Shown here: positions 6,036 to 54,758 of the stretch, piece after piece
Layout: each line of letters begins with the position of its first letter
Position numbering within the stretch: position 1 is the stretch's first letter
Assembly: GCF_030817355.1 (NCBI RefSeq)
Contig: NZ_JAUSZH010000001.1
Location: 8,035,001-8,099,000, forward strand
Reading direction: 5' to 3'
DNA: 64,000 nucleotides
Source of the DNA: Streptomyces sp. V1I1
GTDB taxonomy: Bacteria; Actinomycetota; Actinomycetes; Streptomycetales; Streptomycetaceae
The notes under the pieces: model-generated
Seen by the model: only the letters and a program-made list of their open reading frames with translations
What the model was told of the DNA's origin: nothing
Databases searched by the model: none
Made by a program: the position numbers and the translations under genes

Positions 6036-6043
6036 GCTCTCAC

Positions 6044-7637
6044 CTTGTTCTTTATGGTCTGACCTCGAACGACGTCCCGAACGTGATCGCTCGTACGAGG
6101 ATTCCGGGGACGTGAACACGGCCTTCGTCTGATCCTGTGCTCCGACCAAAGAGGCACTTGACCAGCAACGAAGGCCGTGGGGGGATGAGTTTGCTGCATC
6201 ACGATGTCGGGCGGGATCCGTTCACGGTGGCGTCACGCTTCCGGGACGATTTCTTCGACTGCCTGACCGGGCGCGGGGACGAGTTGTTCGAACTGGCGGG
6301 CGCGCTGCTGTGTGCGGACGGGCCGGTGACCGCGCCGGTAGACCTGACGCTGGTGGCCGGGCACCGGCGTGGACACGGCGCGATGTACGACGCGCTGAAC
6401 TGCGGGAGCGTGGACGTGCCGCGGTTGCGGCAGGTGCTGGCCGGCTTGCCGCAACCCGAGGCCGCCGACGGGCGCCTGGTGCTGGCCGTGGACGTCACGA
6501 ACTGGCTCCGCCCGGACGCACCCACCAGTCCGGATCGCTTGTTCTGCCACGTCTACGGCCGCAGCGGCCGGTCCTCCGACCAGTTCGTGCCCGGCTGGCC
6601 CTACTCCTTCGTCGCCGCCCTGGAATCGGGCCGGACGTCATGGTGCCAGCTCCTGGACGCCGTCCGTCTCGGCCTGCCGACGACGTCGCCGAGGCTACTG
6701 CCACGCAGGTCCGCAGGGTGGTCGAGGACCTCATCGACATGGGCCGGTGGCGCATCGGCGACCGCGACATCCTGATCGTCTTCGACGCTGGATACGACGC
6801 CCCGCGCATGGCCCACCTCCTGCACGGGCTGCCGGTGGAGGTCCTCGGGCGGATGCGCACGGACCGGGTGATGCGCAGGCCGGTCCCGGTCCCGTGGATC
6901 TCGCCACCGCAGGGCGGCCGTCCGCCCAAGCACGGCAAGGAGTTCCGCTTCGCCAAACCGGAGACCTGGGGCGAGCCGGACGCGGCCACCACGCAGGTCA
7001 CCGACCGGTACGGCACCGCCCGCGCGATGGCCTGGGACCGCATCCACCCCCGGCTGACCACCCGATCGGCGTGGATCGACCACACCGGTGAACTCCCCGT
7101 CATCGAGGGCACGTTGATCCGCCTCCAGGTCGACCGCCTGCCCGGCGGCAACGACCCGCTGCCGCTCTGGCTGTGGTCTTCGGCCACCGGCCTGACCGCC
7201 GCCGAAGTCGACATCCGCTGGCAGGCGTTCCTGCGACGCTTCGACCTGGAACACACCTTCCGCATGATCAAACAGACCCTCGGCTGGACCCGCCCGAAGC
7301 TCCGCACCCCCGAGGCCGCGGACCGCTGGACCTGGCTGATCATCGCGGCGCACACCCAACTCCGTCTCGTCCGCGAGGCCGCCGCCGACCTCCGCCGCCC
7401 CTGGGAGCGACCCGCCAAGCCCGGCCGCCTCACCCCCGCCAGAGTCCGCCGCGGGTTCAGGAACCTCCGCCCACACTTGACCTGTCCCGCCCGAGCGCCG
7501 AAACCATCCCGGCCGGGACCTGGCCGTCCTCCCGGCTCGAAGAACCGGCACCCGGCACCCCGTCACGACGTCGGCAAAACCGTCAAACGGCCCGAGAGCA
7601 TCAAGGAACGCTCCCGGGCCGGAGGATAAAGAACAAG
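6044..7637 (+). mobile_element. Insertion sequence, copy 1 (1594 bp), with 5-bp target duplication CTCAC
   Basis: Both ends carry the inverted repeat CTTGTTCTTTAT (6044-6055, and its complement ending at 7637). CTCAC flanks it on both sides (6039-6043 and 7638-7642). The sequence is nearly identical to 27104-28685 in the same orientation; the main difference is 12 extra bases here near 6380. It carries one transposase gene in two frames. The right target copy overlaps the stop codon of the neighbouring decarboxylase-like gene. Confidence 0.92.
6185..7629 (+). pseudogene. DDE transposase of IS copy 1, interrupted by one frameshift
   Basis: ATG at 6185 (after a G-rich ribosome site) begins MSLLHHDVGRDPF. 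The first frame runs to about 6670 and the rest continues in another frame to 7629. A missing base in GGCCTGCC near 6672 explains the break, since an extra C would restore VRLGPADDV. The two parts together make about 480 residues with a DDE-type core (LAVDVTNWL, LIVFDAGYDAPR, LEHTFRMIKQ) and a basic tail, as in a transposase family common in Streptomyces. The identical break occurs in copy 2, so either both copies are dead or synthesis uses frameshifting. Confidence 0.85.
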
Positions 7638-7638
7638 C

Positions 7639-8049
7639 TCACTCCGTAACCGGCAGCAACCCGCGTTCGGCAAAGACCTTCTTGGCGACGGAGGTGGCGT
7701 TGAGAACCTTGGGCATGCCGCAGTAGACGGCGGAGTGCAGCAGGGCCTCAACGATCTCGTTGGGTGTCAGGCCGACGTTGAGTGCGGCGTTGACGTGGAC
7801 CTCCAGCTGGGGCTCGCAGCCACCGAGGGCGGTGAGAATGCCGAGCGTGACCAGCTGGCGGTCGCGGGGCGCGAGCCCCGGGCGGTCGTAGATGTCGCCG
7901 AATGCCCAGGCGACGACCTGATGGCCCAGTTCGGGCGAGACATCGGCCAGCGAGTCGATGACACGTTGGCCCGCTTCGCCGTCGACAGCGGCAAGCACCT
8001 TCATACCGTGCTCGAAGCGGTCTTGCCTGGTCTCGGCCGACATGGGCAC
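7639..8049 (-). CDS. Carboxymuconolactone decarboxylase/AhpD-fold family protein
   Basis: A 136-residue all-helical protein with the family pattern: RDRQLVTLGILTALGGCEPQLEVHVNAALNVG, then EALLHSAVYCGMPKVLNA. Members are hexameric decarboxylases (PcaC) or peroxidase-like proteins. The lone Cys near GGCEPQ and YCG in place of a CxxC pair argue for the decarboxylase-like group rather than an AhpD peroxidase. The substrate is unknown and there is no aromatic-degradation operon nearby. Its TGA stop lies inside the IS target duplication, so the IS landed at the stop without changing the protein. The start could also be the second Met at 8043. Confidence 0.85.
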   Translation of the reverse strand: MPMSAETRQDRFEHGMKVLAAVDGEAGQRVIDSLADVSPELGHQVVAWAFGDIYDRPGLAPRDRQLVTLGILTALGGCEPQLEVHVNAALNVGLTPNEIVEALLHSAVYCGMPKVLNATSVAKKVFAERGLLPVTE

Positions 8050-14432: not shown

Positions 14433-14668
14433 ACGCGTAGAGCCCGATGGTCCTTCTGAAAAAACGAAACTCCTCTGACTGCGTGCGGTAGACCGCGATG
14501 CGCTGGTCTCATTGCTGGGGCGCGCTCGTAGCATGAGCGCGCCCACTTCACTTCGGTGCACCCCCTCCACCAATGAGTGATGTGACCGTATGTGAGGGAA
14601 CCATCGGTCGACATCTGATGTCATTGTCACCATTCGAAGAAATTGAGTCAGGGGGTGACACAGCGAAC

Positions 14669-15478
14669 ATGAACTGGAAGGCGGCACTACGCCGGTATTC
14701 CCTGCCCGGAGCGGTTGGCATCTTTTCTGGTGGCTCGTTGGCGTTGGGAAGTATTGCCACAGGTGCAAGTGGTGCCTGGGGGCCTTTGTGCGTCACTGGT
14801 GGCGCACTGCTGTCGGCGGCAGCAGGCTTCGCCGCGTTGAAAGTGCAAGGTGACACTGAGCGAATCCAGAAGGAACGCGAGCGGGCAGCTGTTTTAGAGG
14901 CGGCCATGGGTCCGGTGGCTGAGTACATGGGGCGCCTGTCTGTTAGCCCCACTGAGCACCAGGAACTACTGGGCTCAATCAATGACCGGCTGGTTGAGAC
15001 CGCTTCTGAGTTGGCCCACCCGCGGGCTCGGAGCACTTTCTACGCCTTGCAAGACCGGAGCCGCCTCGTGCGGCGGGCGTCCTCGGGAACGAACGGCCAC
15101 GTTCCGCAGACCTTCGCTAGTGGGGACGAGCGCAGTGACTTCCTCCTCGGCGTGGCGCTGGGCTCGCGTGATCGGTATATCGATGATCTGGCCAAGGATC
15201 CGGACGCCTACCGCATCTCCTTGTCAGACGGCTTCCGGACTGCCCGGATCATGCGAGCGCGGGCCGGCGAAATAACGCAAGGACTGCTGATTGTGGAGGC
15301 CCCGGATTGCGGCGACCTGTCTGAAGATGACCTTTCTTCTCTGCTGGTCATCGCACATTTAGTCGGGGTCTCACAAGTGATCCGGCCACGCAACGGGGGC
15401 GGAGCCGGGAGCATCGTTCCGCACCCCGCGCCCCCAAGCGATTCTGAGACAAGTGCAACGGGCGCCGACGATGGGTAG
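14669..15478 (+). CDS. Hypothetical membrane-anchored protein
   Basis: From ATG 14669 (alternatives at 14618 and 14573) it has 269 residues. Two hydrophobic segments at about residues 12-32 and 36-57 form a hairpin anchor. A charged helix (TERIQKERERAAVLEAAM) follows, then a soluble domain of about 150 residues with alternating strands and helices that may be GAF-like, ending in an acidic, disordered tail. No catalytic motif seen. A topology with the soluble part inside the cell is inferred. Codon choice is less GC-biased than in neighbours, hinting at acquisition. Confidence 0.6.
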   Translation: MNWKAALRRYSLPGAVGIFSGGSLALGSIATGASGAWGPLCVTGGALLSAAAGFAALKVQGDTERIQKERERAAVLEAAMGPVAEYMGRLSVSPTEHQELLGSINDRLVETASELAHPRARSTFYALQDRSRLVRRASSGTNGHVPQTFASGDERSDFLLGVALGSRDRYIDDLAKDPDAYRISLSDGFRTARIMRARAGEITQGLLIVEAPDCGDLSEDDLSSLLVIAHLVGVSQVIRPRNGGGAGSIVPHPAPPSDSETSATGADDG

Positions 15479-16834: not shown

Positions 16835-17524
16835 CAGGACGGCCCCAACGGCGCCGGTAAGTCCACCTTGCTGCGCACGTTCTACCGGGCGCTGCGACCC
16901 ACATCAGGGAGGGTGCTGCCGGACGGCCAGGACGTCTGGCGGATGCCCGGCAAGCGCCTGGCGCGGCGGCTTGCCGCCGTACTGCAGGAGACCGCCGGGG
17001 AGTTCGAGCTCACTGTGTACGACGTGGTGGCCATGGGACGCACCCCGCACAAGCGGGCCTTCGCGGGTGACGACGCCGACGACCGCGACATCATCATGGG
17101 GTCGCTGGAGGAGTTTGACGTCGGCGCCCTGGCGAAGGCACCGTTCGACCGGCTCTCGGTCGGGGAGAAGCAGCGCGTGCTGATCGCCCGCGCACTTGCG
17201 CAGCGCACGGGGACGATGGTGCTGGACGAGCCGACCAACCATCTGGATCTGCGCCACCAGCTCGACGCGCTGCGGCTCGTCCGCAGGCTGGGAGTCACCG
17301 CCGTCGTCACCCTCCATGACCTCAACCTCGCTGCATCCTTCTGCGACCGGATCTGCGTGATGGACGGCGGCCGTGTGGTTGCCACCGGTACTCCCGCGCA
17401 CGTCCTCACGCCCGCGCTGCTGGCCGAGGTCTACCGCGTCGACGCCGCGGTGGCCGAGCACCCTCTGACCGGAGTCCCGCAAGTCACCCTGCTTTCCGGC
17501 GTCGAGTGGATCGGAAAGGAGTGA
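16835..17524 (+). pseudogene. FecE/FepC-like siderophore ABC transporter ATPase, N-terminally truncated
   Basis: Begins inside the Walker A loop (GPNGAGKST at 16841-16867) and runs through the Q-loop (LQETAGEFE), signature, Walker B (GTMVLDEPTNHLDL) and switch His (VTLHDLN) to a natural stop. The first 30-35 residues, including the first beta strands, were removed when the IS5-type sequence joined at about 16834. The signature reads LSVGEKQR, Val replacing the conserved second Gly of LSGGE. No permease or binding-protein gene remains nearby, so iron-siderophore import is lost here. Confidence 0.85.
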
Positions 17525-17966: not shown

Positions 17967-20900
17967 TTATGAACCGGCAGGGTCCTGGAGCGTGAGGCCC
18001 ATGTGGTCGGCGAGACCTGTGGCGAGTGCCGCCAGGGTCGGGTGCTGATAGACGAAGTTGGCGGCGACTTTGATGCCGAGACCGGTTTCCAGGCGGGTTC
18101 GCAGTTCCAGGGACAGCAGCGAGTCGAACCCCAGTGACTTCAGCGGAGTCTGCGGTTCGAGGGCGGTGTTTCCCAGCCGGAGCACCGCGCGGATGTGGTC
18201 GGCGATGTAGGCCTCGAGGGCGGTGCGTCGGGCAAGACCCGCCGGTATGGAGCTCAGCTCGGTGCGAATGTCGATGCTGTCGTCCTGCTCGGTGTTTCCG
18301 GACGGTTCCTCTGCGAGGAGGCTGAACAGGGACGAATGCCGGACCGCCGGGAGGATCCAGGTGTCCGGTTTCCCGGGGATCACGGCGGTGCGTGTGCGCT
18401 GGTGTACGAGGAGGGCGTTCAGCGCCTGGAGCCCCTTTTTCGTGGGGATGGTCTGGTACCCCCGTTCGGCGAAGTCGACGGCGGCCCCTGTCTCACCCCA
18501 CGCGCCCCAGTTCACGGAGAGTGTCGGCATGCCGCGGCCCGTCCGCCAGGTGGCGAATCCATCGAGCCAGGAGTTGGCGGCGGCGTAGGCACCTTGGCCG
18601 GGATTGCCCAGCAGGGAGGCCATGGACGAGAACACGACGAACCAGTCGGGGGCGTGAGTGGCGGTGGCTTGGTGCAGCCGCCACGCGCCGGTTGCCTTGG
18701 GATGCCACACTCGTAGGAGCTGGTCCTCGGAAATGTTGGTGACCGCGGCGTCGTCGAGGACCATGGCCGCGTGTATGAGGCCGCGCAGGGGCAGGCCGTT
18801 CGCGGTGGCGGCGGTCACGAGGCGTTCGGCGGTGCCCGGCTCGGCGATGTCGCCGAGCGCGACTGTGATCCGGGTCCCGTGGGCGCGCAGCTCCTCCAGG
18901 GTCCGTTCGGTGGACTCCGAGCCGGGCGAGCGGCCATTGAGGACGATGTGACCGGCGCCCTGTTCGGCGAGCCAGCGGGCTGTCGCGAGGCCGACACCCC
19001 GCAGTCCGCCAGTGACGATGTAGGCGCTGTCCGGGTGCACGACAGAGGGTCCTTCAGGGATCACGGCGGTCGTGTCGCCCCGGTCGGGGACGGTCAGGAT
19101 CAGTTTGCCGATGTGACTCGCACCCGCCATGAAGCGGAACGCCTCGGTGACCTCGGCCAGTGGGAAACTTCGGTGGGGCAGCGGCTTCAGACGTCCCGAG
19201 GCGACCGCGCTGAGCACCTCGCGGAGCACGGCGGTGAACACCTCTGACCGCTTGTGCTGGACCTCGATGAGGTCGACTGTGCTGAGGGTGATGTTGTGCC
19301 GGAACGGCGACAACCCGACGGACGTGTCGGAGAGGATGTCGCGCACCCCCAGTTCGACGAAACGGCCGAAGGGGCGCAGAGTTTCGAGCCCGGAGCGGAT
19401 CGCCGCGCCGGACAAGGAGTTGAGGACGACATCGACGCCCTCGCCCCCGGTGGCGGCGCGGGTCTGCTCGGTGAAGTGCAAGGACCGGGAATCCATGACG
19501 TGCTCGATTCCCATACCGCGCAGGTAGGCGCGCTTCTCCGCATTGCCGGCTGTGGCCAGTACCTCGGCCCCCAGCATCCGGGCGACGCCGATGGCGGCAA
19601 GCCCGGTCCCGCCGGTCGCGGAGTGGATCAGAACGCGTTCACGGGCGGTGAGTCGCGCCACGTGGCGCAAGGCGTACCACGCGGTGACGTACGCGGCGGG
19701 GAGCCCTGCCGCTGCGGTGGCGTCGATTCCGGCCGGTACGGGCGCGACGGCATGGACGGGCACGGTGACGAACGACCCGAACGCCCCGCCCCGCAGGTCG
19801 ACGGCCAGCACCGGGTCACCCACGCGGACGGCCGTGACGTCCGGCCCTACCGCCGTGACCGTCCCCGCGCACTCGAAGCCGATGCGGTACCTCGCGTCCT
19901 CGTCTGCGGAGAGAAGGCCCATGGCTGTCAGCACGTCCCGGAAGTTCACCGCTGCGGCACGCACGCGGAGTTCGACTTCCCCCGGCCCCGGGGCGGGCCT
20001 GTCGGTGACGGCGAGTTGGAGGGAGCCCAGATCGCCGAAGCGGCCGACTCGGAGCCGGAAGCGGTCCGTGCCGTAGCGCACGGGACGTGTGGTGGCCGTG
20101 TGGCGCTCGGTCTCCGTCAGCGGGGCGTAGTCCAGCCGGGCGATGTGGCGGATGCCGCCGCGCAGGGCGACCTCGTCCTCGGGACCAGCATTCAGCAGTT
20201 CGGCCGCCACGTCGTGCAGTGCCGCGTCGGCCGGGTCGGCGTCCAGATGGGTGGCGCGGACTTCGGGGTGTTCGTAGGCGAGGACGCGTACCACTCCGCG
20301 CAGTGCGCTCTGGCCGGGGTCGGCCGGCTCTGCGGGGTCGACGGTCTGGGCGCCACGGGTGACCACGAACAGACGAGGAGGTTCGGGGCAGCCGGAGACG
20401 GCGGCTTGCACGGTGTCGAGCAGCCGTCGGGTGCGTCGTAGTGCGCGCGCTGCCGGATCCCCGCCGTCGGCGGGTGGCGCGCAGAGCAGCACCACGGCGT
20501 CCGGGGGGCTGGGGTGGTCGGCCCAGCGGTCGACGAGTGCGTCTTTGAGCAGCCCGAGCGGGTGGTCGCCCACGGGGGTGTCGAGCACGTCGGTGGTCGC
20601 CCCTGCCATGTGCAGCATGACGGCCAGCGCCTGGGCGGAACCGTCTGCCTCACCGATGACGAGCCAGCTTCCCTGCGGGGTCGTCCCTTTCGTCTCCGGG
20701 AGCGCAGCACGTTGCCAGCGAGTCTCGAGGAACCAGCCGTCGACACCGGCTGCACCGGGCGCGCCATGGCGTACCAGCTGCAGGCTGTCAATACTGAGCA
20801 CGGGCTTGCCCGCCTCGTCCAGCAGACGGACGTGTCCGGTGACGCCGTCGGTCTTCTCCTCCACGACGCGGGCGTGACAGTACACGGCTGTCGTGGGGTC

Positions 20901-23900
20901 GCCGAGGATGCGTACTGCCTTGACCCCGACCGGAAGGACCAGGCCCTGGCCGTGCTCCCGGATCAGCCCCGCCACCAGCGCTTGCGCGCAGCAATCGACA
21001 AGGACCGGGTGGATACGCAGAACGTCCGGCGCCGGTGTGGCCGCCGCCGGTAACTCGACGCGGGCCCACACACTCTCCCCGTCGCGTGAGACCCGCAGGC
21101 TCATGATGCCGGTGAAGGCCGGGCCGTGTTCGATGCCGCGGGCGCGCATGCCCGCGTAGAGCGAGGCCGGGTCGAGGGCGACCGGGTGCTGCGCCGGCAG
21201 CGCCGTCAGCTTCGCCGTCAGCTTCGCCGTCGGCGGCAGCGGCGGTACGCCGACGTGGTGCAGCTCGGCGGTCGCCTGTCGTACCCAGCCTCCGTCTTCA
21301 CCTCGGCCGAAGATCTCGCACTCGGCGCGGTCCGGCGCGGTCACGGTCACGCTGGTGACCACCTCGGTGTGTGCGGACAACTGCAGCAACTCCAGGAACC
21401 GGACGTCGGTGACCTCAATTTCCTGTTCGGGCGCACCGAACACCTCACAGGCCACTGTCAGGGCGACGGCGCAATAGCCGGCACCGGGAAACACCGGATC
21501 CGCGTGCACCCGGTGGTCGGCCAGCCATGGCACCGCCGCGGTCCCCGCGTCTCCCCGCCAGTAGTGACGGACCTGTTCACCAGGGACCTCGGCGTGTGTG
21601 CCGGGCAGGCCGCCGCCAGTTCCCGCGGGAGCGTCCGCGAACGGGGCGACATCCGCCCAGTGACGTTGCCGGTCGAACGTGAGGAATGGTACGTCGGAGA
21701 GCTCCGCGTCCAGGTAGAGCTTGGACCAGTCGACATCGACGCCCGCGCAGTGCAGAGCTGCCAACTGGGTGCGGAACGTGGTCAGTTCCTCCTCCTCGCG
21801 GCGCAGTGTGGGCAGAACCACCGCGTTCTCGACGAGACGGGGCAGGCTGTCCGTGACGGAGCGGGTGACGACCGGGTGGGGAGAGACTTCGACGTAGACG
21901 TGGTGCCGGTCCGCGGCAGCTGCGGCGATCGCGGAGGCGAACCGGACGGGGTGGCGCAGGTTCGCGCACCAGTAGGCGGCGTCGAAGTCGGGAATCCGGC
22001 GTGGGTCACTCAGAACTGTCGAGTAGAACGGCACTCGGGGCTGCTCAGGTGCCAAGTCCGCCAGGGCCGTGCGGAGATCGGAGAGCAGCGGATCCACCTG
22101 GGGAGAGTGTGAGGCGACGTCCACGGCGATCAGATGCGCGGGGATGGCCCGCGACTCCCAGGCGGAAACCAGCCGTTCCACCTCTCGGGTCTCACCGGCG
22201 ACGACGGTTGAGCCGGGGGCGGCGAGGACTGCGACCGAGACAGCTCCGGAGGCGCAGGCGGTGTCGAGTTCAGCTTCCACCGCCGCCCGGTCCAGGCTCA
22301 CGGTCGCCATGGCGCCGGCACCCGCGATCCGGGTCAGCAGCGAGGACCGTCGGCAGATGACCCGGACGCCGTCGGCGAGCGTCAGCGCTCCGGCCACGAC
22401 CGCGGCCGCGACCTCACCCATGGAGTGGCCCACGACGGCAGCCGGTTCGACGCCATGCGCCCGCCAGAGGGCGGCCAGCGCGATCTGTACGGCGAACAGC
22501 AGAGGCTGCACCCGTGAGCATTCGGTCACCGGATCTCCCCTGGACACCATGTCGAGTACGGAGAAGCCGGCCTCGGCCCCGATCAGCGCGTCGGCTTCGG
22601 TCAGGGCCGCGGCGAAGACCGGTTCGTACTCCAGCAGAGTGCGTCCCATGCCGGCCCATTGCGAGCCCTGCCCGGAGAACACCCACACCGGGCGCCGGGA
22701 GACTCCGGCGGCCACTGCGCCGGACACCAGGCCCGGGTGAGCCTGTCCGGCCGCGAAGGACCTCAGGGCGCGGACGAGGTCATGGCGGGAGGCTGCCACC
22801 GCACCGAGGCGGCCGCGGCCCGCCGAGCGCCTCAGCGCGAGTGTGTGGGCGACGTCGCGCAGCGGCACGCTCGATCCGTCTCCCTCGAGCCAGTCGGCGA
22901 GCCGTTCCGCCGCCAACGGGAGCACCCTGGCGGACCCCGCGGGTACGAGAAAGACCTCGGGCGTCGTGCCCTCCGAAGGTGTGACAGGCCGATGGCTGGA
23001 GGCGGCGGCCGGTGCCTGCTCGAGTACGACGTGGGCATTGGTGCCGGAATATCCGAAGGATGAGACCGCCGCGAGCCGGGGGCTCGAGCGGGTGGGCCAC
23101 TCGGTCAGCCGGGTGGGCACGAAGAAGCGGGTTCCTTCGGCCGCGATGGCCGGGTTCCACTTTGTGAAGTGCAGATTGGGCGGGACGAGTCCGCGCTGCA
23201 GGCACAGCACGGCCTTGATCAGGCCGGTGATTCCGGAGGCGGGTTCGAGATGTCCGAGGTTCGTCTTGACCGATCCGAGCGCGCACCGGTCCGGGCCCAC
23301 GCCGTAGACCTGTGCCAGGCTCGAGAACTCGATCGGATCCCCGATCGGCGTGCCCGTACCGTGCGTCTCGATCAGCCCTACGTCCTTTTGGTCGGTCCCA
23401 GCACGTTCCAGTGCTTCCCGGAACAGGGCCTGCTGGGCGGCCGCCGAGGGGGCGGCCAGCCCGTCGGACCGGCCGTCCTGGTTCACGGCCGAGCCGCGTA
23501 TCACGGCGAGTACACGGTCACCGTCCCGCAGAGCGTCGGCCAGGCGTTTGAGTACGACGACACCGCACCCCTCACCGCGCACGAAGCCGTCCGCGGCGGC
23601 GTCGAACGTATGGCAGCGTCCCGTCGGCGACAGCATTCCCATCCGCGCGAAGGACCTCATCGTCCTGGATCCGAGGATGAGCGTGACGCCGCCGGCCAGG
23701 GCGAGGTCGCACTCACCGGACCCCAGCGCCCGGCATGCCAGGTGGAGTGCCACGAGCGATGAGGAGCATGCCGTGTCCAGCGCGACACAGGGACCGTGCA
23801 GCCCCAGGAGATAGGAGATCCGTCCCGCGGCGACGCAGTGACCGTTCGTCAGGAGCGAGCCCTCCAGCTCCAGCGGGTGCCCGGCGAGACCCTCGTAGAA

Positions 23901-24323
23901 GTCGTTGTAGCTGATGCCCAGGTACATCCCTGTGGAACTCCCGGTCAGCCGGTCGGGCGGCAGGCCCGCGTGTTCCAGTGCCTCCCAGGCCACCTCCAGA
24001 AGCAGCCGGTGCTGCGGGTCGAGCACGTCCGCCTCGCGACCGGAGACGCCGAAGAAGTCCGCGTCGAAGCCGGACACGTCCCGCAGGTAGCCGCCCTGTC
24101 GCGCCATCGGATTCCCGTTCCCGGACCTGACGCTGCCGTGATGAGCGCCTGATGCCCCGGACCCGGTACGACCGGCAGGAGGGTTCCCTACCGCATCCCG
24201 TCCGTCGGCCAGCAGTCGCCACAGTGCGGCTGGCGAATCGACATCGCCGGGGAGCCGGCACCCCAGTCCGACAACGGCGATGCGCTTGTGCTCTGCGCTC
24301 TCAGGGTGATCACGCTGGACCAT
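17967..24323 (-). CDS. Single-module fully reducing type I polyketide synthase (KS-AT-DH-ER-KR-ACP)
   Basis: 2118 residues; GGGGAGG stands 7 bases before ATG 24323. KS at about 14-440 is complete (DTACSSSL, HGTGTPIGDP, GSVKTNLGHLE). AT at about 545-825 has GHSMGE, and VASH in the specificity loop favours methylmalonyl-CoA over malonyl-CoA. DH at about 890-1180 has H936 but Ala for Gly in the first motif (HRVHADPVFP), with DCCAQ as its second. A structural KR-like insert precedes ER (about 1414-1746, HSATGGTGLAA) and KR (about 1764-1998; TGGLRGVG, SSM, AYAAANS, LDD of B type). ACP serine lies in LGFDSLLS. No thioesterase. Order and length match mycobacterial Mas/Pks5 enzymes that iterate to make methyl-branched acyl chains; iteration here is inferred. 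Confidence 0.93.
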   Translation of the reverse strand: MVQRDHPESAEHKRIAVVGLGCRLPGDVDSPAALWRLLADGRDAVGNPPAGRTGSGASGAHHGSVRSGNGNPMARQGGYLRDVSGFDADFFGVSGREADVLDPQHRLLLEVAWEALEHAGLPPDRLTGSSTGMYLGISYNDFYEGLAGHPLELEGSLLTNGHCVAAGRISYLLGLHGPCVALDTACSSSLVALHLACRALGSGECDLALAGGVTLILGSRTMRSFARMGMLSPTGRCHTFDAAADGFVRGEGCGVVVLKRLADALRDGDRVLAVIRGSAVNQDGRSDGLAAPSAAAQQALFREALERAGTDQKDVGLIETHGTGTPIGDPIEFSSLAQVYGVGPDRCALGSVKTNLGHLEPASGITGLIKAVLCLQRGLVPPNLHFTKWNPAIAAEGTRFFVPTRLTEWPTRSSPRLAAVSSFGYSGTNAHVVLEQAPAAASSHRPVTPSEGTTPEVFLVPAGSARVLPLAAERLADWLEGDGSSVPLRDVAHTLALRRSAGRGRLGAVAASRHDLVRALRSFAAGQAHPGLVSGAVAAGVSRRPVWVFSGQGSQWAGMGRTLLEYEPVFAAALTEADALIGAEAGFSVLDMVSRGDPVTECSRVQPLLFAVQIALAALWRAHGVEPAAVVGHSMGEVAAAVVAGALTLADGVRVICRRSSLLTRIAGAGAMATVSLDRAAVEAELDTACASGAVSVAVLAAPGSTVVAGETREVERLVSAWESRAIPAHLIAVDVASHSPQVDPLLSDLRTALADLAPEQPRVPFYSTVLSDPRRIPDFDAAYWCANLRHPVRFASAIAAAAADRHHVYVEVSPHPVVTRSVTDSLPRLVENAVVLPTLRREEEELTTFRTQLAALHCAGVDVDWSKLYLDAELSDVPFLTFDRQRHWADVAPFADAPAGTGGGLPGTHAEVPGEQVRHYWRGDAGTAAVPWLADHRVHADPVFPGAGYCAVALTVACEVFGAPEQEIEVTDVRFLELLQLSAHTEVVTSVTVTAPDRAECEIFGRGEDGGWVRQATAELHHVGVPPLPPTAKLTAKLTALPAQHPVALDPASLYAGMRARGIEHGPAFTGIMSLRVSRDGESVWARVELPAAATPAPDVLRIHPVLVDCCAQALVAGLIREHGQGLVLPVGVKAVRILGDPTTAVYCHARVVEEKTDGVTGHVRLLDEAGKPVLSIDSLQLVRHGAPGAAGVDGWFLETRWQRAALPETKGTTPQGSWLVIGEADGSAQALAVMLHMAGATTDVLDTPVGDHPLGLLKDALVDRWADHPSPPDAVVLLCAPPADGGDPAARALRRTRRLLDTVQAAVSGCPEPPRLFVVTRGAQTVDPAEPADPGQSALRGVVRVLAYEHPEVRATHLDADPADAALHDVAAELLNAGPEDEVALRGGIRHIARLDYAPLTETERHTATTRPVRYGTDRFRLRVGRFGDLGSLQLAVTDRPAPGPGEVELRVRAAAVNFRDVLTAMGLLSADEDARYRIGFECAGTVTAVGPDVTAVRVGDPVLAVDLRGGAFGSFVTVPVHAVAPVPAGIDATAAAGLPAAYVTAWYALRHVARLTARERVLIHSATGGTGLAAIGVARMLGAEVLATAGNAEKRAYLRGMGIEHVMDSRSLHFTEQTRAATGGEGVDVVLNSLSGAAIRSGLETLRPFGRFVELGVRDILSDTSVGLSPFRHNITLSTVDLIEVQHKRSEVFTAVLREVLSAVASGRLKPLPHRSFPLAEVTEAFRFMAGASHIGKLILTVPDRGDTTAVIPEGPSVVHPDSAYIVTGGLRGVGLATARWLAEQGAGHIVLNGRSPGSESTERTLEELRAHGTRITVALGDIAEPGTAERLVTAATANGLPLRGLIHAAMVLDDAAVTNISEDQLLRVWHPKATGAWRLHQATATHAPDWFVVFSSMASLLGNPGQGAYAAANSWLDGFATWRTGRGMPTLSVNWGAWGETGAAVDFAERGYQTIPTKKGLQALNALLVHQRTRTAVIPGKPDTWILPAVRHSSLFSLLAEEPSGNTEQDDSIDIRTELSSIPAGLARRTALEAYIADHIRAVLRLGNTALEPQTPLKSLGFDSLLSLELRTRLETGLGIKVAANFVYQHPTLAALATGLADHMGLTLQDPAGS

Positions 24324-24403
24324 GGGAAACCTCCCCCTCCCGTCCGTCAGACGGGTCCGGATCGAAACACACTGTGGAATGGCCGTGCACGGGTCGGGTT
24401 TTC

Positions 24404-25756
24404 TCAGCGCTGCTGAGCGGCGTCCGGGCTTCCCAGCAGGACCGCGCTCTTCACACCGCCGATCTGGTAGGTGAAATTCAGCGCATGATGGAAGTCGAGA
24501 GAACGGGTGCGCACACCAGGGACCGGATCGAATACGAGACCGTCGGCCGGCTGCTCACAATTCGCCGTAGGACATACCTCGCCCCGCTCCATCATGAGGA
24601 GGGTCAGCGCCACTCCGAGGCATCCCGCCGGGGCTCCGTTGTGGCCGAAACAGCCTTCCTGGGACGTCATGAGCAGCCCGGCCGCGGCCGAGCCGTACAG
24701 GTGTCTGACCGCATTGACTTCAAAGGCGGTGACGACGGCGTCACCGTCGCTGCCGCCGTGAATGTAGGGCACCTGCTCGATGGACCATCGGTCCCCGAGG
24801 CATGCACGGACGGCGGCCACGAGCCCCATTCCACTCTCGTCGCTCGCTAGCGGGTTGGCGAGCCCGTCGCGAGTAGTGGCCTGTGCGAGAATCTGGCCGT
24901 ACGCGTGAGCGCCACGTCGATGTGCGTGGTCCCGGCTTTCCAGGACCAATGTCACTGAACCCTCGCCGTAGTTCACGCAGTCCGCACGCCGGTCGTACGG
25001 CCGCATAAGGCGGTCGAACGACGGAAGGAGCGCGGGTTTGCCGGCCGACCGGATGGACGTGTTCGCTTGCTGAGCCACACGTAACAGGCGCTGTGCGTTG
25101 CGGACCAGACCGACGTTGAAAACGTCGACGCCGGTCACCACCGCAATGTCCACCACGCCATCGGCAATCATGTGGCGGGCATTTCCGAGCTGGACGGCGG
25201 ACGACGCACAACCGCAGGACACCGTGTAGCAAGGACCGGTGGAGCGGGTCACCGCTCCCTGCACCAGGGCGACATCGGATGGAGAAACGGCCAGTTCGGT
25301 GCCGATGAAGAGATCCATCGCCTCCAGGGCGCTGATCGTTTCAGGGTCGGCCCGGAGGACCGCCTGGTAGCTGCCCACTTGGGCATCCACCCCGCCCCGC
25401 CCGGCCAGAATTGCCGCGGCTGTCAGATCTCCCGCGTACGGGTTCAACTCGGCATCCATGCACGCCTCTGCCAGTGAGACCAGGCCGAACCGATGCGCGG
25501 CGGTGAAGTGAGCGGAGAAAACCCCCGGGAATTCGGGCAGACGTTCCTCGAACATGGCGTCGGAAAGGTGCACCGGGCCGTGATAGACACCGTCACGTAA
25601 GAGACATGAACGTCCGTGCGAGGCGATGTCCCAGACTTCCTCCGCGGTGAAAACGGGCCGGCCCTCACCCGGCAGGCAGAACCCCATGCCGGTAACCACG
25701 ACATCCCGCGCACTCGCGCCCGCACTTGCTCGAGTTGTCATAGCTCGACCGCTCAT
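24404..25756 (-). CDS. Standalone FabF-like ketosynthase with altered active site
   Basis: GGAGG stands 7 bases before ATG 25756, giving 450 residues; it is 80 bases upstream of the PKS and probably co-transcribed. The thiolase fold is clear: VVVTGMGFCLPG, nucleophile region SCGCASSAVQLG (Cys about 183), first His in IHGGSDGDAV (about 333), second His in GCFGHNGAPAG (about 370). The Lys normally five residues before that His is Glu, and the usual HGTxTPxxD is HGGSDGDAV. It keeps Cys-His-His but lacks the conserved Lys, so it may transfer or condense acyl chains in an unusual way, for example priming or releasing the PKS chain. It is not a chain-length-factor type, since Cys remains. Confidence 0.88.
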   Translation of the reverse strand: MSGRAMTTRASAGASARDVVVTGMGFCLPGEGRPVFTAEEVWDIASHGRSCLLRDGVYHGPVHLSDAMFEERLPEFPGVFSAHFTAAHRFGLVSLAEACMDAELNPYAGDLTAAAILAGRGGVDAQVGSYQAVLRADPETISALEAMDLFIGTELAVSPSDVALVQGAVTRSTGPCYTVSCGCASSAVQLGNARHMIADGVVDIAVVTGVDVFNVGLVRNAQRLLRVAQQANTSIRSAGKPALLPSFDRLMRPYDRRADCVNYGEGSVTLVLESRDHAHRRGAHAYGQILAQATTRDGLANPLASDESGMGLVAAVRACLGDRWSIEQVPYIHGGSDGDAVVTAFEVNAVRHLYGSAAAGLLMTSQEGCFGHNGAPAGCLGVALTLLMMERGEVCPTANCEQPADGLVFDPVPGVRTRSLDFHHALNFTYQIGGVKSAVLLGSPDAAQQR

Positions 25757-26378: not shown

Positions 26379-26900
26379 TTATCCGGCGGATTTCAGAGAC
26401 TTGTACAACACCGCGCAGGGGCGGCCGAGTTGGCGGTCTTCGCGGTGACCGATCACCAGGTAGCCGAGCGCAGTCCAGAAGGCGAGGGCCCGCGGGTTGT
26501 TCTCGACACGGCGAGCTTGGCGCCGGTACGGCCCGCGGCCCGGAACCGTTCCTCGACGAGTTGCGCCAACTGGCGTCCGTATCCGGAGCGTTGCTCGCGG
26601 CCGTCCACCATCAGCAGCCCGATCCAGGGGTCGGGGTCGGTGGGGTCCGGGGTGGCGAGCCAGCGTGTCCGCGAGTGCGACGAGCCGCCCACCGCCCCGG
26701 GCCAGCAGCACCTCGGCGTCCGGAGTGGCCAGTTTGCGGGCGAGTTCCGTGGCGACCTGCTCGATGCGTACGTCATCGGGGTCGGGGAAGTAGCCGCTGA
26801 GCGCGAGGAAGTCCCGGTTGGAGCGGTACAGCTCGGTGATCTCGGTGAGCACCGCCCCGGGCAGCGCGCCGTCCACGGGCACCAGAGATTCGATGAACAT
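26379..26900 (-). pseudogene. GNAT acetyltransferase, two compensating frameshifts
   Basis: ATG at 26900 begins MFIESLVPVDGALPG. The frame shifts near 26665, where the middle (WIGLLMVDGREQRSGYGRQL, the acetyl-CoA binding motif A with GxGxxL-like GYGRQL) reads in a second frame. It shifts back near 26510 to ENNPRALAFWTALGYLVIG and a natural stop. In total about 173 residues of a GNAT are recognisable. The two breaks restore the original frame, so the C-terminus is preserved. IS copy 2 lies about 200 bases upstream. Confidence 0.8.
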
Positions 26901-27103
26901 GTGGCGCACCCTGTGTGCAGCTCTGTCCGAGGGGTCTGTGAAGCCATGCCATCGGCCTGGTGTCGGCGTCAGTCGGCGGTGAGGGCGAATGCCGGCAGAG
27001 CGATGGAGGTGTAGTCGACCGCCGGCTCGACCGTCTGCCAGGCTCCGGCATTTGGCCGCTGAGATGGAGAAGGCGGAGTCGCGCAAGTGGCCCGGTCGCT
27101 CAG

Positions 27104-28685
27104 CTTGTTCTTTATGGTCTGACCTCGAACGACGTCCCGAACGTGATCGCTCGTACGAGGATTCCGGGGACGTGAACACGGCCTTCGTCTGATCCTGTGC
27201 TCCGACCAAAGAGGCACTTGACCAGCAACGAAGGCCGTGGGGGGATGAGTTTGCTGCATCACGATGTCGGGCGGGATCCGTTCACGGTGGCGTCACGCTT
27301 CCGGGACGATTTCTTCGACTGCCTGACCGGGCGCGGGGACGAGTTGTTCGAACTGGCGGGCGCGCTGCTGTGTGCGGACGGGCCGGTGACCGCGCCGGTA
27401 GACCTGACGCTGGTGGCCGGGCACCGGCGTGGACACGACGCGCTGAACTGCGGGAGCGTGGACGTGCCGCGGTTGCGGCAGGTGCTGGCCGGCTTGCCGC
27501 AACCCGAGGCCGCCGACGGGCGCCTGGTGCTGGCCGTGGACGTCACGAACTGGCTCCGCCCGGACGCACCCACCAGTCCGGATCGCTTGTTCTGCCACGT
27601 CTACGGCCGCAGCGGCCGGTCCTCCGACCAGTTCGTGCCCGGCTGGCCCTACTCCTTCGTCGCCGCCCTGGAATCGGGCCGGACGTCATGGTGCCAGCTC
27701 CTGGACGCCGTCCGTCTCGGCCTGCCGACGACGTCGCCGAGGCTACTGCCACGCAGGTCCGCAGGGTGGTCGAGGACCTCATCGACATGGGCCGGTGGCG
27801 CATCGGCGACCGCGACATCCTGATCGTCTTCGACGCTGGATACGACGCCCCGCGCATGGCCCACCTCCTGCACGGGCTGCCGGTGGAGGTCCTCGGGCGG
27901 ATGCGCACGGACCGGGTGATGCGCAGGCCGGTCCCGGTCCCGTGGATCTCGCCACCGCAGGGCGGCCGTCCGCCCAAGCACGGCAAGGAGTTCCGCTTCG
28001 CCAAACCGGAGACCTGGGGCGAGCCGGACGCGGCCACCACGCAGGTCACCGACCGGTACGGCACCGCCCGCGCGATGGCCTGGGACCGCATCCACCCCCG
28101 GCTGACCACCCGATCGGCGTGGATCGACCACACCGGTGAACTCCCCGTCATCGAGGGCACGTTGATCCGCCTCCAGGTCGACCGCCTGCCCGGCGGCAAC
28201 GACCCGCTGCCGCTCTGGCTGTGGTCTTCGGCCACCGGCCTGACCGCCGCCGAAGTCGAGATCCGCTGGCAGGCGTTCCTGCGACGCTTCGACCTGGAAC
28301 ATACCTTCCGCATGATCAAACAGACCCTCGGCTGGACCCGCCCGAAGCTCCGCACCCCCGAGGCCGCGGACCGCTGGACCTGGCTGATCATCGCGGCGCA
28401 CACCCAACTCCGTCTCGTCCGCGAGGCCGCCGCCGACCTCCGCCGCCCCTGGGAGCGACCCGCCGAGCCCGGCCGCCTCACCCCCGCCAGAGTCCGCCGC
28501 GGGTTCAGGAACCTCCGCCCACACTTGACCTGTCCCGCCCGAGCGCCGAAACCATCCCGGCCGGGACCTGGCCGTCCTCCCGGCTCGAAGAACCGGCACC
28601 CGGCACCCCGTCACGACGTCGGCAAAACCGTCAAACGGCCCGAGAGCATCAAGGAACGCTCCCGGGCCGGAGGATAAAGAACAAG
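27104..28685 (+). mobile_element. Insertion sequence, copy 2 (1582 bp), with 5-bp target duplication CTCAG
   Basis: The same inverted ends as copy 1 (CTTGTTCTTTAT), flanked by CTCAG at 27099-27103 and 28686-28690. It differs from copy 1 by a 12-base in-frame deletion (GAMY lost after GHRRGH) and a few substitutions, including Asp to Glu in AEVEIRW and Lys to Glu in RPAEPG. Same orientation as copy 1, so recombination between them could delete about 21 kb. Confidence 0.92.
27245..28677 (+). pseudogene. DDE transposase of IS copy 2, same frameshift as copy 1
   Basis: Begins MSLLHHDVGRDPF at 27245 and changes frame near 27720, at the same GGCCTGCC sequence as copy 1, then continues to 28677. 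Motifs LAVDVTNWL, LIVFDAGYDAPR and LEHTFRMIKQ are intact across the two frames. Because both copies share the break yet each has its own target duplication, the element either moved with the break present or was mobilised by a protein made elsewhere. Confidence 0.85.
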
Positions 28686-28690
28686 CTCAG

Positions 28691-53731: not shown

Positions 53732-54508
53732 ATGAACCGCACTGTTCACACCCACAATGACGACCGTCCCAAGCGTCGGGGCCTTCGCCTTGCGACGGTT
53801 GTCGCCTCGGCCGCTGTGATCGGCGGAGGTGTCATCCTTCCGGCAACTGCCGCGACGGCGGCCCCGATGCCCGCCTCGTCGGTCGTGAGCCTCGCCGACT
53901 CCCACAAGCACCCTGACAAGCATCACGACAAGCATCACGGCAAGGGAAAGAGCAAGAGTAAGGGTAAGGGAAAGGGCAAGAACAAGAATAAGGGCGGTGA
54001 CGCCAAGGGTGGTAACGCTTCCGGGGTTGGCACCAATAAGGGCGGTGACGCCAAGGGCGGTAACGCTTCCGGTACTGGCACCAACACCGGTGGTAATGCT
54101 CAGGGCGGTAATGCTTCCGGCGTTGGCACTAACACCGGTGGTAATGCTCAGGGTGGTAATGCTTCGGGGGTGGGCACCAATAAGGGTGGTGACGCCAAGG
54201 GTGGTGACGCTTCCGGCGTCGGTACCAACACCGGTGGTAATGCTCAGGGCGGTAATGCTTCCGGTGTAGGCACTAACACTGGTGGTAATGCTCAGGGCGG
54301 TAATGCTTCTGGCGTCGGTACTAACACTGGTGGTAATGCTCAGGGCGGTAATGCTTCTGGCGTCGGTACTAACACTGGTGGTAATGCTCAGGGCGGTAAT
54401 GCTTCCGGCGTCGGTACTAACACTGGTGGTAATGCTCAGGGCGGTGACGCTTCTGGCGTCGGTACCAATACCGGTGGTAATGCTCAGGGTGGTGACGCCA
54501 CGGGCTAG
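53732..54508 (+). CDS. Secreted protein made of 16-residue Gly/Asn repeats
   Basis: 258 residues. A long basic n-region (DDRPKRRGLRL), hydrophobic core and AATAAP site indicate Sec export at about residue 44. A His/Lys spacer (DSHKHPDKHHDKHHGKGK) follows, then eleven full and one partial copy of NTGGNAQGGNASGVGT, with NKGGDAKGG variants in copies 1, 2 and 5. There are no Cys or aromatic residues in the repeats and no sorting signal. The regularity suggests a beta-solenoid or polyglycine-type fibre on the cell surface. The AGGAG site is well placed before ATG 53732. The next gene encodes a secreted protein with a similar His/Lys spacer. No known family. Confidence 0.8.
   Translation: MNRTVHTHNDDRPKRRGLRLATVVASAAVIGGGVILPATAATAAPMPASSVVSLADSHKHPDKHHDKHHGKGKSKSKGKGKGKNKNKGGDAKGGNASGVGTNKGGDAKGGNASGTGTNTGGNAQGGNASGVGTNTGGNAQGGNASGVGTNKGGDAKGGDASGVGTNTGGNAQGGNASGVGTNTGGNAQGGNASGVGTNTGGNAQGGNASGVGTNTGGNAQGGNASGVGTNTGGNAQGGDASGVGTNTGGNAQGGDATG
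53992..54508 (+). repeat. 48-bp tandem coding repeat, eleven full copies plus one partial
   Basis: Each 48-base unit encodes 16 residues. Copies 7-10 are almost identical at DNA level, while the first five vary and use AAG (Lys) in place of ACT/ACC (Thr). This gradient suggests recent expansion of the downstream copies and potential for copy-number change. Confidence 0.9.
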
Positions 54509-54758
54509 GAGCTGACTGGCGCGGACAGCGTCGAGTGAGTTCGCGGTCTGGCTGGGTGGCAAAGGCCGGCGGCTACGCCACCCAGCCAGACCGCCGAATG
54601 TCCGCAGGTAAGCGGAAGTGCGGCTGCTTCAGGCGGCCCTGCACCGTGGGGCGAATGCGCCCACCCCGGCATCGGGTAAAGACCCGTCTCGAAAGAATAA
54701 GAATTTTTCGCTCGTTCTCACCTTCTCGAGAGCATGCGGAAGAGGAACGAGAATTCTC

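Follow-up and report, generated by a model that had tools for sequence, protein, structure and literature searches.

A discrete ketosynthase-like protein and a Mas-type polyketide synthase form a conserved, mobile two-gene unit in Streptomyces and other actinomycetes

Two adjacent genes on the minus strand of Streptomyces sp. V1I1 DNA encode a discrete protein of the ketosynthase (KS) fold and a single-module polyketide synthase (PKS) of the Mas architecture. They lie in a 64,000-nucleotide stretch, here called the window (contig NZ_JAUSZH010000001.1, positions 8,035,001 to 8,099,000; all positions below are those of the window unless a genome coordinate is given), which is located approximately 0.17 to 0.24 Mb from the end of the 8.27-Mb chromosome contig. 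The KS gene is upstream of the PKS gene and separated from it by 80 bases; a small DUF5988 gene is found 95 bases downstream of the PKS gene (Table 1). A first-pass annotation, made from the letters of the window, had described a two-gene locus with this spacing, and the gene ends bear it out.

Table 1. Features of the KS-PKS locus and its flanks in the window
Feature	Position	Strand	Remarks
Discrete KS-fold protein, 450 aa	24404..25756	-	ATG at 25756, TGA at 24404
Cys183 codon (nucleophile position, motif SCGCASS)	25208..25210	-	Cys in 121/121 sequences and in 60/60 paired loci
Gly335 codon (first catalytic His of FabF)	24752..24754	-	Gly 105, Ala 15, Ser 1 among 121 sequences
Glu367 codon (catalytic Lys of FabF, KSxxGH)	24656..24658	-	Glu in 121/121 sequences and in 60/60 paired loci
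Mas-architecture, iterative-type PKS, 2118 aa	17967..24323	-	ATG at 24323, TAA at 17967
PKS, KS domain	23004..24287	-	Pfam; complete Cys-His-His-Lys, catalytic residues 59/59
PKS, acyltransferase (AT) domain	21732..22688	-	GHSMGE and VASH motifs; GHSxGE and VASH 59/59
PKS, dehydratase (DH) domain	20763..21575	-	Pfam; catalytic His 58/59 (X in the remaining row), Asp 59/59
PKS, enoylreductase (ER) domain	19095..19988	-	Pfam; nucleotide-binding motif nearly invariant among 59
PKS, ketoreductase (KR) domain	18495..19025	-	Pfam; Ser, Tyr and Asn positions 59/59
PKS, acyl carrier protein (ACP) domain	18018..18209	-	Pfam; Ser in 58/59 rows, one gap
DUF5988 protein, 69 aa	17665..17871	-	PF19450, 88.9 bits (cut-off, 27); stop codon 17662-17664
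Cytochrome P450	11601-13001	+	Not a pathway member
Insertion sequence (IS) copy A, DDE_5-type transposase	6039..7641	+	Flanking, outside the pathway
IS copy B	27099..28689	+	Flanking, outside the pathway

The PKS is encoded by one uninterrupted open reading frame (ORF), and Pfam matches give the domain order KS-AT-DH-ER-KR-ACP in a single module, as the first-pass annotation had stated. Active-site residues were compared across 59 PKS sequences of nearly full length, including the copy in the window; in the alignment, the catalytic motifs that we inspected are retained in 58 or 59 of them. Among solved structures, the top relative is Mas (9d2z; 1588 bits over PKS residues 14-2108), whereas erythronolide synthase chains score at most 774.5 bits over roughly the first 900 to 1060 residues (both among the best 60 of 109 matches). 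The mycobacterial enzymes Mas and Pks2/Pks5 have the same single-module domain order and the same AT motifs, and the motifs are identical to those in the aligned Mas ATs 5bp1 and 7agp. A Mas/Pks5-like reducing PKS had been proposed, and a closest solved relative that aligns along nearly the whole length supports this. The protein scores 1898.5 bits against the NCBIfam Pks2 equivalog model, below the cut-off of 2400, and is therefore of the Mas kind yet outside the Pks2 equivalog.

The PKS differs from Mas, Pks2, and Pks5 in having a discrete KS partner beside it in every copy examined. Its surroundings may differ from those of Mas as well. The partners of Mas are a FadD ligase, a Pap acyltransferase, and MmpL; none of these was seen among 20 ORFs scanned with Pfam (approximately 8.6 to 32.3 kb of the window). 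No ligase, acyltransferase, or transporter partner was seen in those 20 ORFs or, by eye, in the gene clusters shared between loci. The first-pass statement that the locus lacks a thioesterase, loading module, ligase, and second PKS likewise holds for the 20 ORFs. The rest of the genome is not devoid of KS domains: it contains 31 matches to PF00109, of which the weakest are short.

The discrete KS-like protein matches both halves of the KS family weakly (PF00109, 46.2 bits; PF02801, 42.7 bits; cut-off, 20.8) and scores 104.9 bits against the NCBIfam fabF model, for which the cut-off is 493.75. The Pfam and NCBIfam scans, and the alignment with FabF described below, used a longer open frame of 515 aa. 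Scoring of 8000 candidates gave 326 relatives at E ≤ 0.001; those with a named organism among the best 120 are from Streptomyces, Kitasatospora, or Streptacidiphilus. We surveyed residues in 121 sequences (the window protein and these best 120) and in a second set of 60 PKS-paired loci. With FabF and KAS I the protein shares the fold family, the Cys nucleophile, and the second His (His372, retained in 121/121), but Gly or Ala takes the place of the first His in 120 of the 121 sequences and Ser does so once, the Lys is replaced by Glu, and the GFGG gate of FabF reads QIGG in both the window protein and the family consensus. A gapless phmmer alignment with Thermus FabF (1j3n) places the lost His and Lys in the same columns, and the 60 PKS-paired loci agree with this at these columns. 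D337 and E367 are invariant acidic residues, each present in 60 of 60 PKS-paired loci. Because the first His and the Lys are replaced, a role as an ordinary condensing enzyme is unlikely. It had been called a standalone ketosynthase with an unusual active site; the gene is indeed discrete, and the active site departs from the norm in a more specific way than had been described, but the protein is probably not a ketosynthase in the condensing sense.

Loss of the first catalytic His with retention of the Cys is also seen in the non-elongating KS0 domains of trans-AT PKSs, which have been proposed to transfer chains without condensation. In contrast to KS0 domains, the protein described here (450 aa) is encoded by a gene of its own next to a PKS that carries an AT, and it has also lost the Lys. 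Chain-length factors lose the nucleophile Cys, whereas every one of the 121 sequences keeps it.

To describe the distribution of the pair, we searched 199 Streptomyces genomes. KS matches at E ≤ 1e-100 were present in 24 of these genomes. In 17 the KS is at least 63% identical to the query, and all 17 have the PKS adjoining it (in one, G150, the contig stops within the PKS); in the other 7, identity is 46 to 54% and the PKS is absent. A query consisting of the PKS stretch from DH to ER gave 27 matches, made up of the same 17 genomes at ≥46% identity and 10 others at 34 to 39%. At the level of identity seen in the pair (KS, ≥63%; PKS stretch, ≥46%), neither gene was found alone in the 199 genomes. 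The probability of the 17-with-17 overlap arising by chance is ~6e-25 under the assumption of independent genomes, which does not hold for relatives. Named genomes were also scanned, and PKS domains adjoin the KS in 33 of 33 loci (the contig of one, L032, starts within the KS and lacks the region upstream of it). In a sample of the class, in which only the KS was scored, matches at E ≤ 1e-80 were found in 9 of 394 genomes and 4 of 137 genera. Divergence of the KS is correlated with that of the PKS (r = 0.78; 0 of 5000 permutations) across the 49 loci that remain of 57 once near-duplicates are removed.

In Micromonosporaceae (L027-L029 and L032) the KS and PKS genes are still adjacent, although their neighbors differ, and the KS-PKS pair is therefore the smallest unit seen. 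Since dozens of genomes contain homologues of nearly full length, the locus is not a product of chance. Several loci of the named, plasmid, and other sets come from the same or near-identical strains (e.g., L033/L068, L016/L075, and L019/L078), so that counts must not be summed across sets. Long frames in three genomes (G184, G047, and G105) hinted at a KS-PKS fusion, but one stop codon separates the genes in all three. The first-pass annotation had left room for the two genes never co-occurring elsewhere. That is refuted by the 17 of 17 carriers and 33 of 33 named loci, and the idea of a rare pair is not supported either: the pair recurs in many Streptomyces genomes and on plasmids.

KS matches were found in 22 of 72,556 plasmid records, 21 from Streptomyces and 1 from Kitasatospora. 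The PKS adjoins the KS in all 12 of the 22 that we inspected, and 11 of the 12 are linear. In the window, IS copies A and B are 99.0% identical, lie in the same orientation 21 kb apart, and form a bracket around the locus resembling that of a composite transposon. The plasmid copies and the IS bracket are compatible with horizontal spread of the pair. A phage origin was also considered and rejected, with no relative among 50,697 phage records or in one viral-contig scan. We conclude that the KS and PKS genes form a conserved, mobile two-gene unit.

The DUF5988-like gene that the first-pass annotation had noted nearby is confirmed by its Pfam score (Table 1). An AlphaFold2 model of the protein is all beta (mean confidence score, pLDDT, 89), and a fold search with it gave no match worth naming. 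The gene lies next to the pair at 28 of the 33 named loci and in 11 of the 17 Streptomyces genomes, including the window; it was not found in the Micromonosporaceae loci. The window, L001, and L002 show the gene order KS-PKS-DUF5988, and DUF5988 comes first in the remaining loci with a match. In 101 genomes there were 53 DUF5988 matches, 6 of which belong to the pair; we examined 8 to 20 kb around each of the other 47. The window protein lacks a WWERTE ending. A match to PKS KS/AT or to a thioesterase-like protein is near 12 of 18 DUF5988 genes without this ending, compared with 1 of 29 with it (p ~ 4e-6). On the basis of these associations, we propose that DUF5988 is an accessory protein that belongs with PKS clusters. 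The gene pruA is nearby in 11 of the 29 loci with WWERTE, and at one locus (L118) a different Mas-like PKS gene has its end overlapped by DUF5988. The genome of the window also carries another DUF5988 gene, one with the WWERTE ending (L091; G000:C1:7230383-7230574), with no PKS match within the surrounding 20 kb. No paper using the term "DUF5988" was found among 5.39 million searched.

Genes with TIG domains are frequent near the pair. They occur in 22 of 33 named loci, in 11 of 12 plasmid regions (~39 kb each), and in 8 of the 17 Streptomyces genomes (stretches of 12 to 20 kb), with none in the window. By comparison, none was found in 52 control stretches of 8 to 20 kb (the 47 DUF5988 loci and 5 other Mas-like PKS loci) or at the 7 KS loci without a PKS. 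Genome-wide, at least 7 TIG matches were found in 5 of 6 carriers versus 3 of 55 other genomes. In one genome (G055) the TIG matches are not near the pair, and none was found at the Micromonosporaceae loci. The link between TIG genes and the pair is real but not obligatory. TIG genes, often along with plasmid replication genes, adjoin the pair at L003, L006, L007, L044-L049, L062-L064, L066, and L067; by eye, several of these lack an evident signal peptide. A small, secreted-looking protein of ~134 aa is encoded at 18 of 46 loci (e.g., L013, L015-L019, L021, L023, L048, and L066), mostly 0.3 to 0.6 kb and sometimes ~3 kb before DUF5988. One representative had no Pfam match.

Nine neighboring genes and ORFs in the window do not travel with the pair. 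The first-pass annotation had regarded the P450 as a possible member, but a search of 61 KS loci at E ≤ 1e-10 turned up no relative of it. Most of these 61 stretches end ~4 kb past the PKS (12 from plasmids extend further), and for this reason we also searched for the P450 in the whole genomes of eight carriers (L001, L002, and six others). The best match was at most 38% identical, and the match nearest to the KS, among the matches listed, was ~22 kb away. The genes for an ABC ATPase, an SNase, a recombinase, an alcohol dehydrogenase, an aldehyde dehydrogenase, and a GNAT remnant, as well as the ORF at 14573-15478, similarly have no relative in the 61 loci, and a methyltransferase has a single weak one (38.5%); we rejected all of these as pathway members. 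The GNAT-acetyltransferase-like remnant (26379-26900, minus strand) was recognized by eye; its frame changes between its ends, and it has no Pfam match. The ABC-transporter ATPase ORF (16868-17524, plus strand) matches its family from profile position 28 only and is perhaps a fragment. Elsewhere in the window (53945-54553, plus strand), a 48-base direct repeat occurs nine times and encodes a Gly/Asn/Ala-rich 16-residue repeat, GGNAQGGNASGVGTNT.

With a probability of about 0.55, we favor the interpretation that the pair is a horizontally spread, two-protein synthase of methyl-branched lipids, in which the KS-like partner moves acyl chains and does not condense them. The Mas-type PKS would take up an acyl starter, extend it iteratively with methylmalonyl-CoA, to which AT motifs of the GHSMGE/VASH type point, and fully reduce each unit, giving a methyl-branched saturated acyl chain on its own ACP. 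The KS-like protein would be acylated on Cys183 and would either hand the starter to the PKS or remove the finished chain from the ACP, with water, CoA, or another molecule as the acceptor; it would thereby replace the absent ligase or thioesterase. DUF5988 would act as the accessory protein proposed above. This interpretation draws on domain content, conserved catalytic residues, the residues lost from the KS, co-occurrence, correlated divergence, and plasmid carriage; from these we infer iteration, the extender unit, acyl transfer, and the class of product. Acyl transfer without condensation, in particular, is suggested by the retention of Cys183 and His372 together with the replacement of the first His and the Lys. 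Of the new points, the strongest are the loss of catalytic residues from a KS whose copies at ≥63% identity are always paired in the 199 Streptomyces genomes, and the link between DUF5988 and PKS genes. A more elaborate version, which we hold only tentatively and think rather doubtful, is that a KS has become a dedicated loading or release acyltransferase (using Cys183 and His372, with Asp337 or Glu367 as a possible acid) and serves a single Mas-type synthase only, the two making up a self-contained producer of methyl-branched lipids that linear plasmids spread, with DUF5988 playing a role for the PKS loosely like that of MbtH-like proteins for NRPSs.

Several observations weigh against the favored interpretation. 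Loss of the His and Lys argues against condensation but does not prove transfer, and the KS-like protein may be inert or structural. Its nearest relatives outside the pair (46 to 54% identity, 7 genomes) carry the same residue changes with no PKS beside them; hence, the changes are not tied to pairing. Joint inheritance of neighboring genes also yields correlated divergence of KS and PKS. Methylmalonyl-CoA is only the probable extender, since the AT call is based on motifs. Finally, some copies are decaying, with one PKS interrupted by an IS4 transposase (L065) and one split in ORF calls (L002). The unpaired sister KS proteins are found at L084-L090; one of their clusters (L085) encodes other KS proteins, including a FabF-like one, two FabH-like enzymes, a CoA transferase, short-chain dehydrogenases/reductases, an acyl-CoA ligase, and a CocE hydrolase.

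The active-site residues of the KS-like protein bear on two further explanations. It could be catalytically dead and instead shape the PKS or the length of its chains in the manner of a chain-length factor, with the PKS loading and releasing chains alone. The lost His and Lys would fit this role, as would the presence of a FabF-like KS in the same cluster as one of the unpaired relatives (L085), but a dead subunit would need neither Cys183 nor the second His, both invariant, and true chain-length factors lose the Cys. We consider this explanation unlikely. That the protein still condenses through a re-arranged active site, forming the first or last C-C bond, for example with an unusual starter, seems to us less likely again. 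The Cys and one His are kept, and D337 and E367 could serve a new arrangement; nevertheless, the first His is missing and the Lys is Glu in every sequence surveyed, and both histidines of FabF, 303 and 340, bind the substrate carbonyl according to the accessible text of PMC7138838.

Two other explanations concern the pair as a whole. It is possible, if somewhat doubtful, that the pair is part of a longer pathway with its other genes elsewhere and only looks like a two-gene pathway. Mas, for its part, depends on a ligase and on an acyltransferase; inspection by eye of the clusters shared between loci showed no gene for a transporter, a ligase, or tailoring, and the nine neighbors in the window are not common to the loci. 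However, the plasmids and chromosomes that carry the pair come from several genera and have no companion genes in common, which means that any further gene it requires must be generally present. The association of KS with PKS could, alternatively, reflect hitch-hiking on a plasmid backbone, with no functional meaning, as many copies have TIG, primase/DnaB, and HATPase genes nearby that resemble such a backbone. We regard this as very improbable: the two genes are adjacent in copies without TIG genes, including those of the window and of Micromonosporaceae, and neither was found without the other in the 199 genomes at the identities given above.

The first-pass annotation could name no pathway for the pair. 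In the literature that we searched, largely without subscription journals, we found no paper naming the pair or its product, and no characterized cluster with the same pair and a known product. Wang et al. reportedly surveyed the iterative type I PKSs of Streptomyces in 2020, and that publication may already cover the PKS clade. SCO6826 and SCO6827 of S. coelicolor are also a type I PKS gene pair in a genomic island, likened to the present pair by description only (excerpts of PMC1934918 and PMC5839063); their product is not named in the available portions of PMC7324645 and PMC5839063. The lagunapyrones have been attributed, in a proposal, to a single-module PKS without an ER together with a type III PKS, a gene set that differs from the present pair (PMC5301196, in part). 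According to the portion of a metagenome study that was available, monomodular KS clades remain unexplored (PMC10308959).

If the favored interpretation is correct, a small two-protein system would be at hand for studying an iterative synthase that has neither thioesterase nor ligase, chain loading or release would proceed by a route not yet explained, and DUF5988 would have its first functional lead. The synthesis of methyl-branched lipids, for which mycobacterial cell envelopes are the best-known setting, would also occur in soil actinomycetes, in the form of a compact mobile unit.

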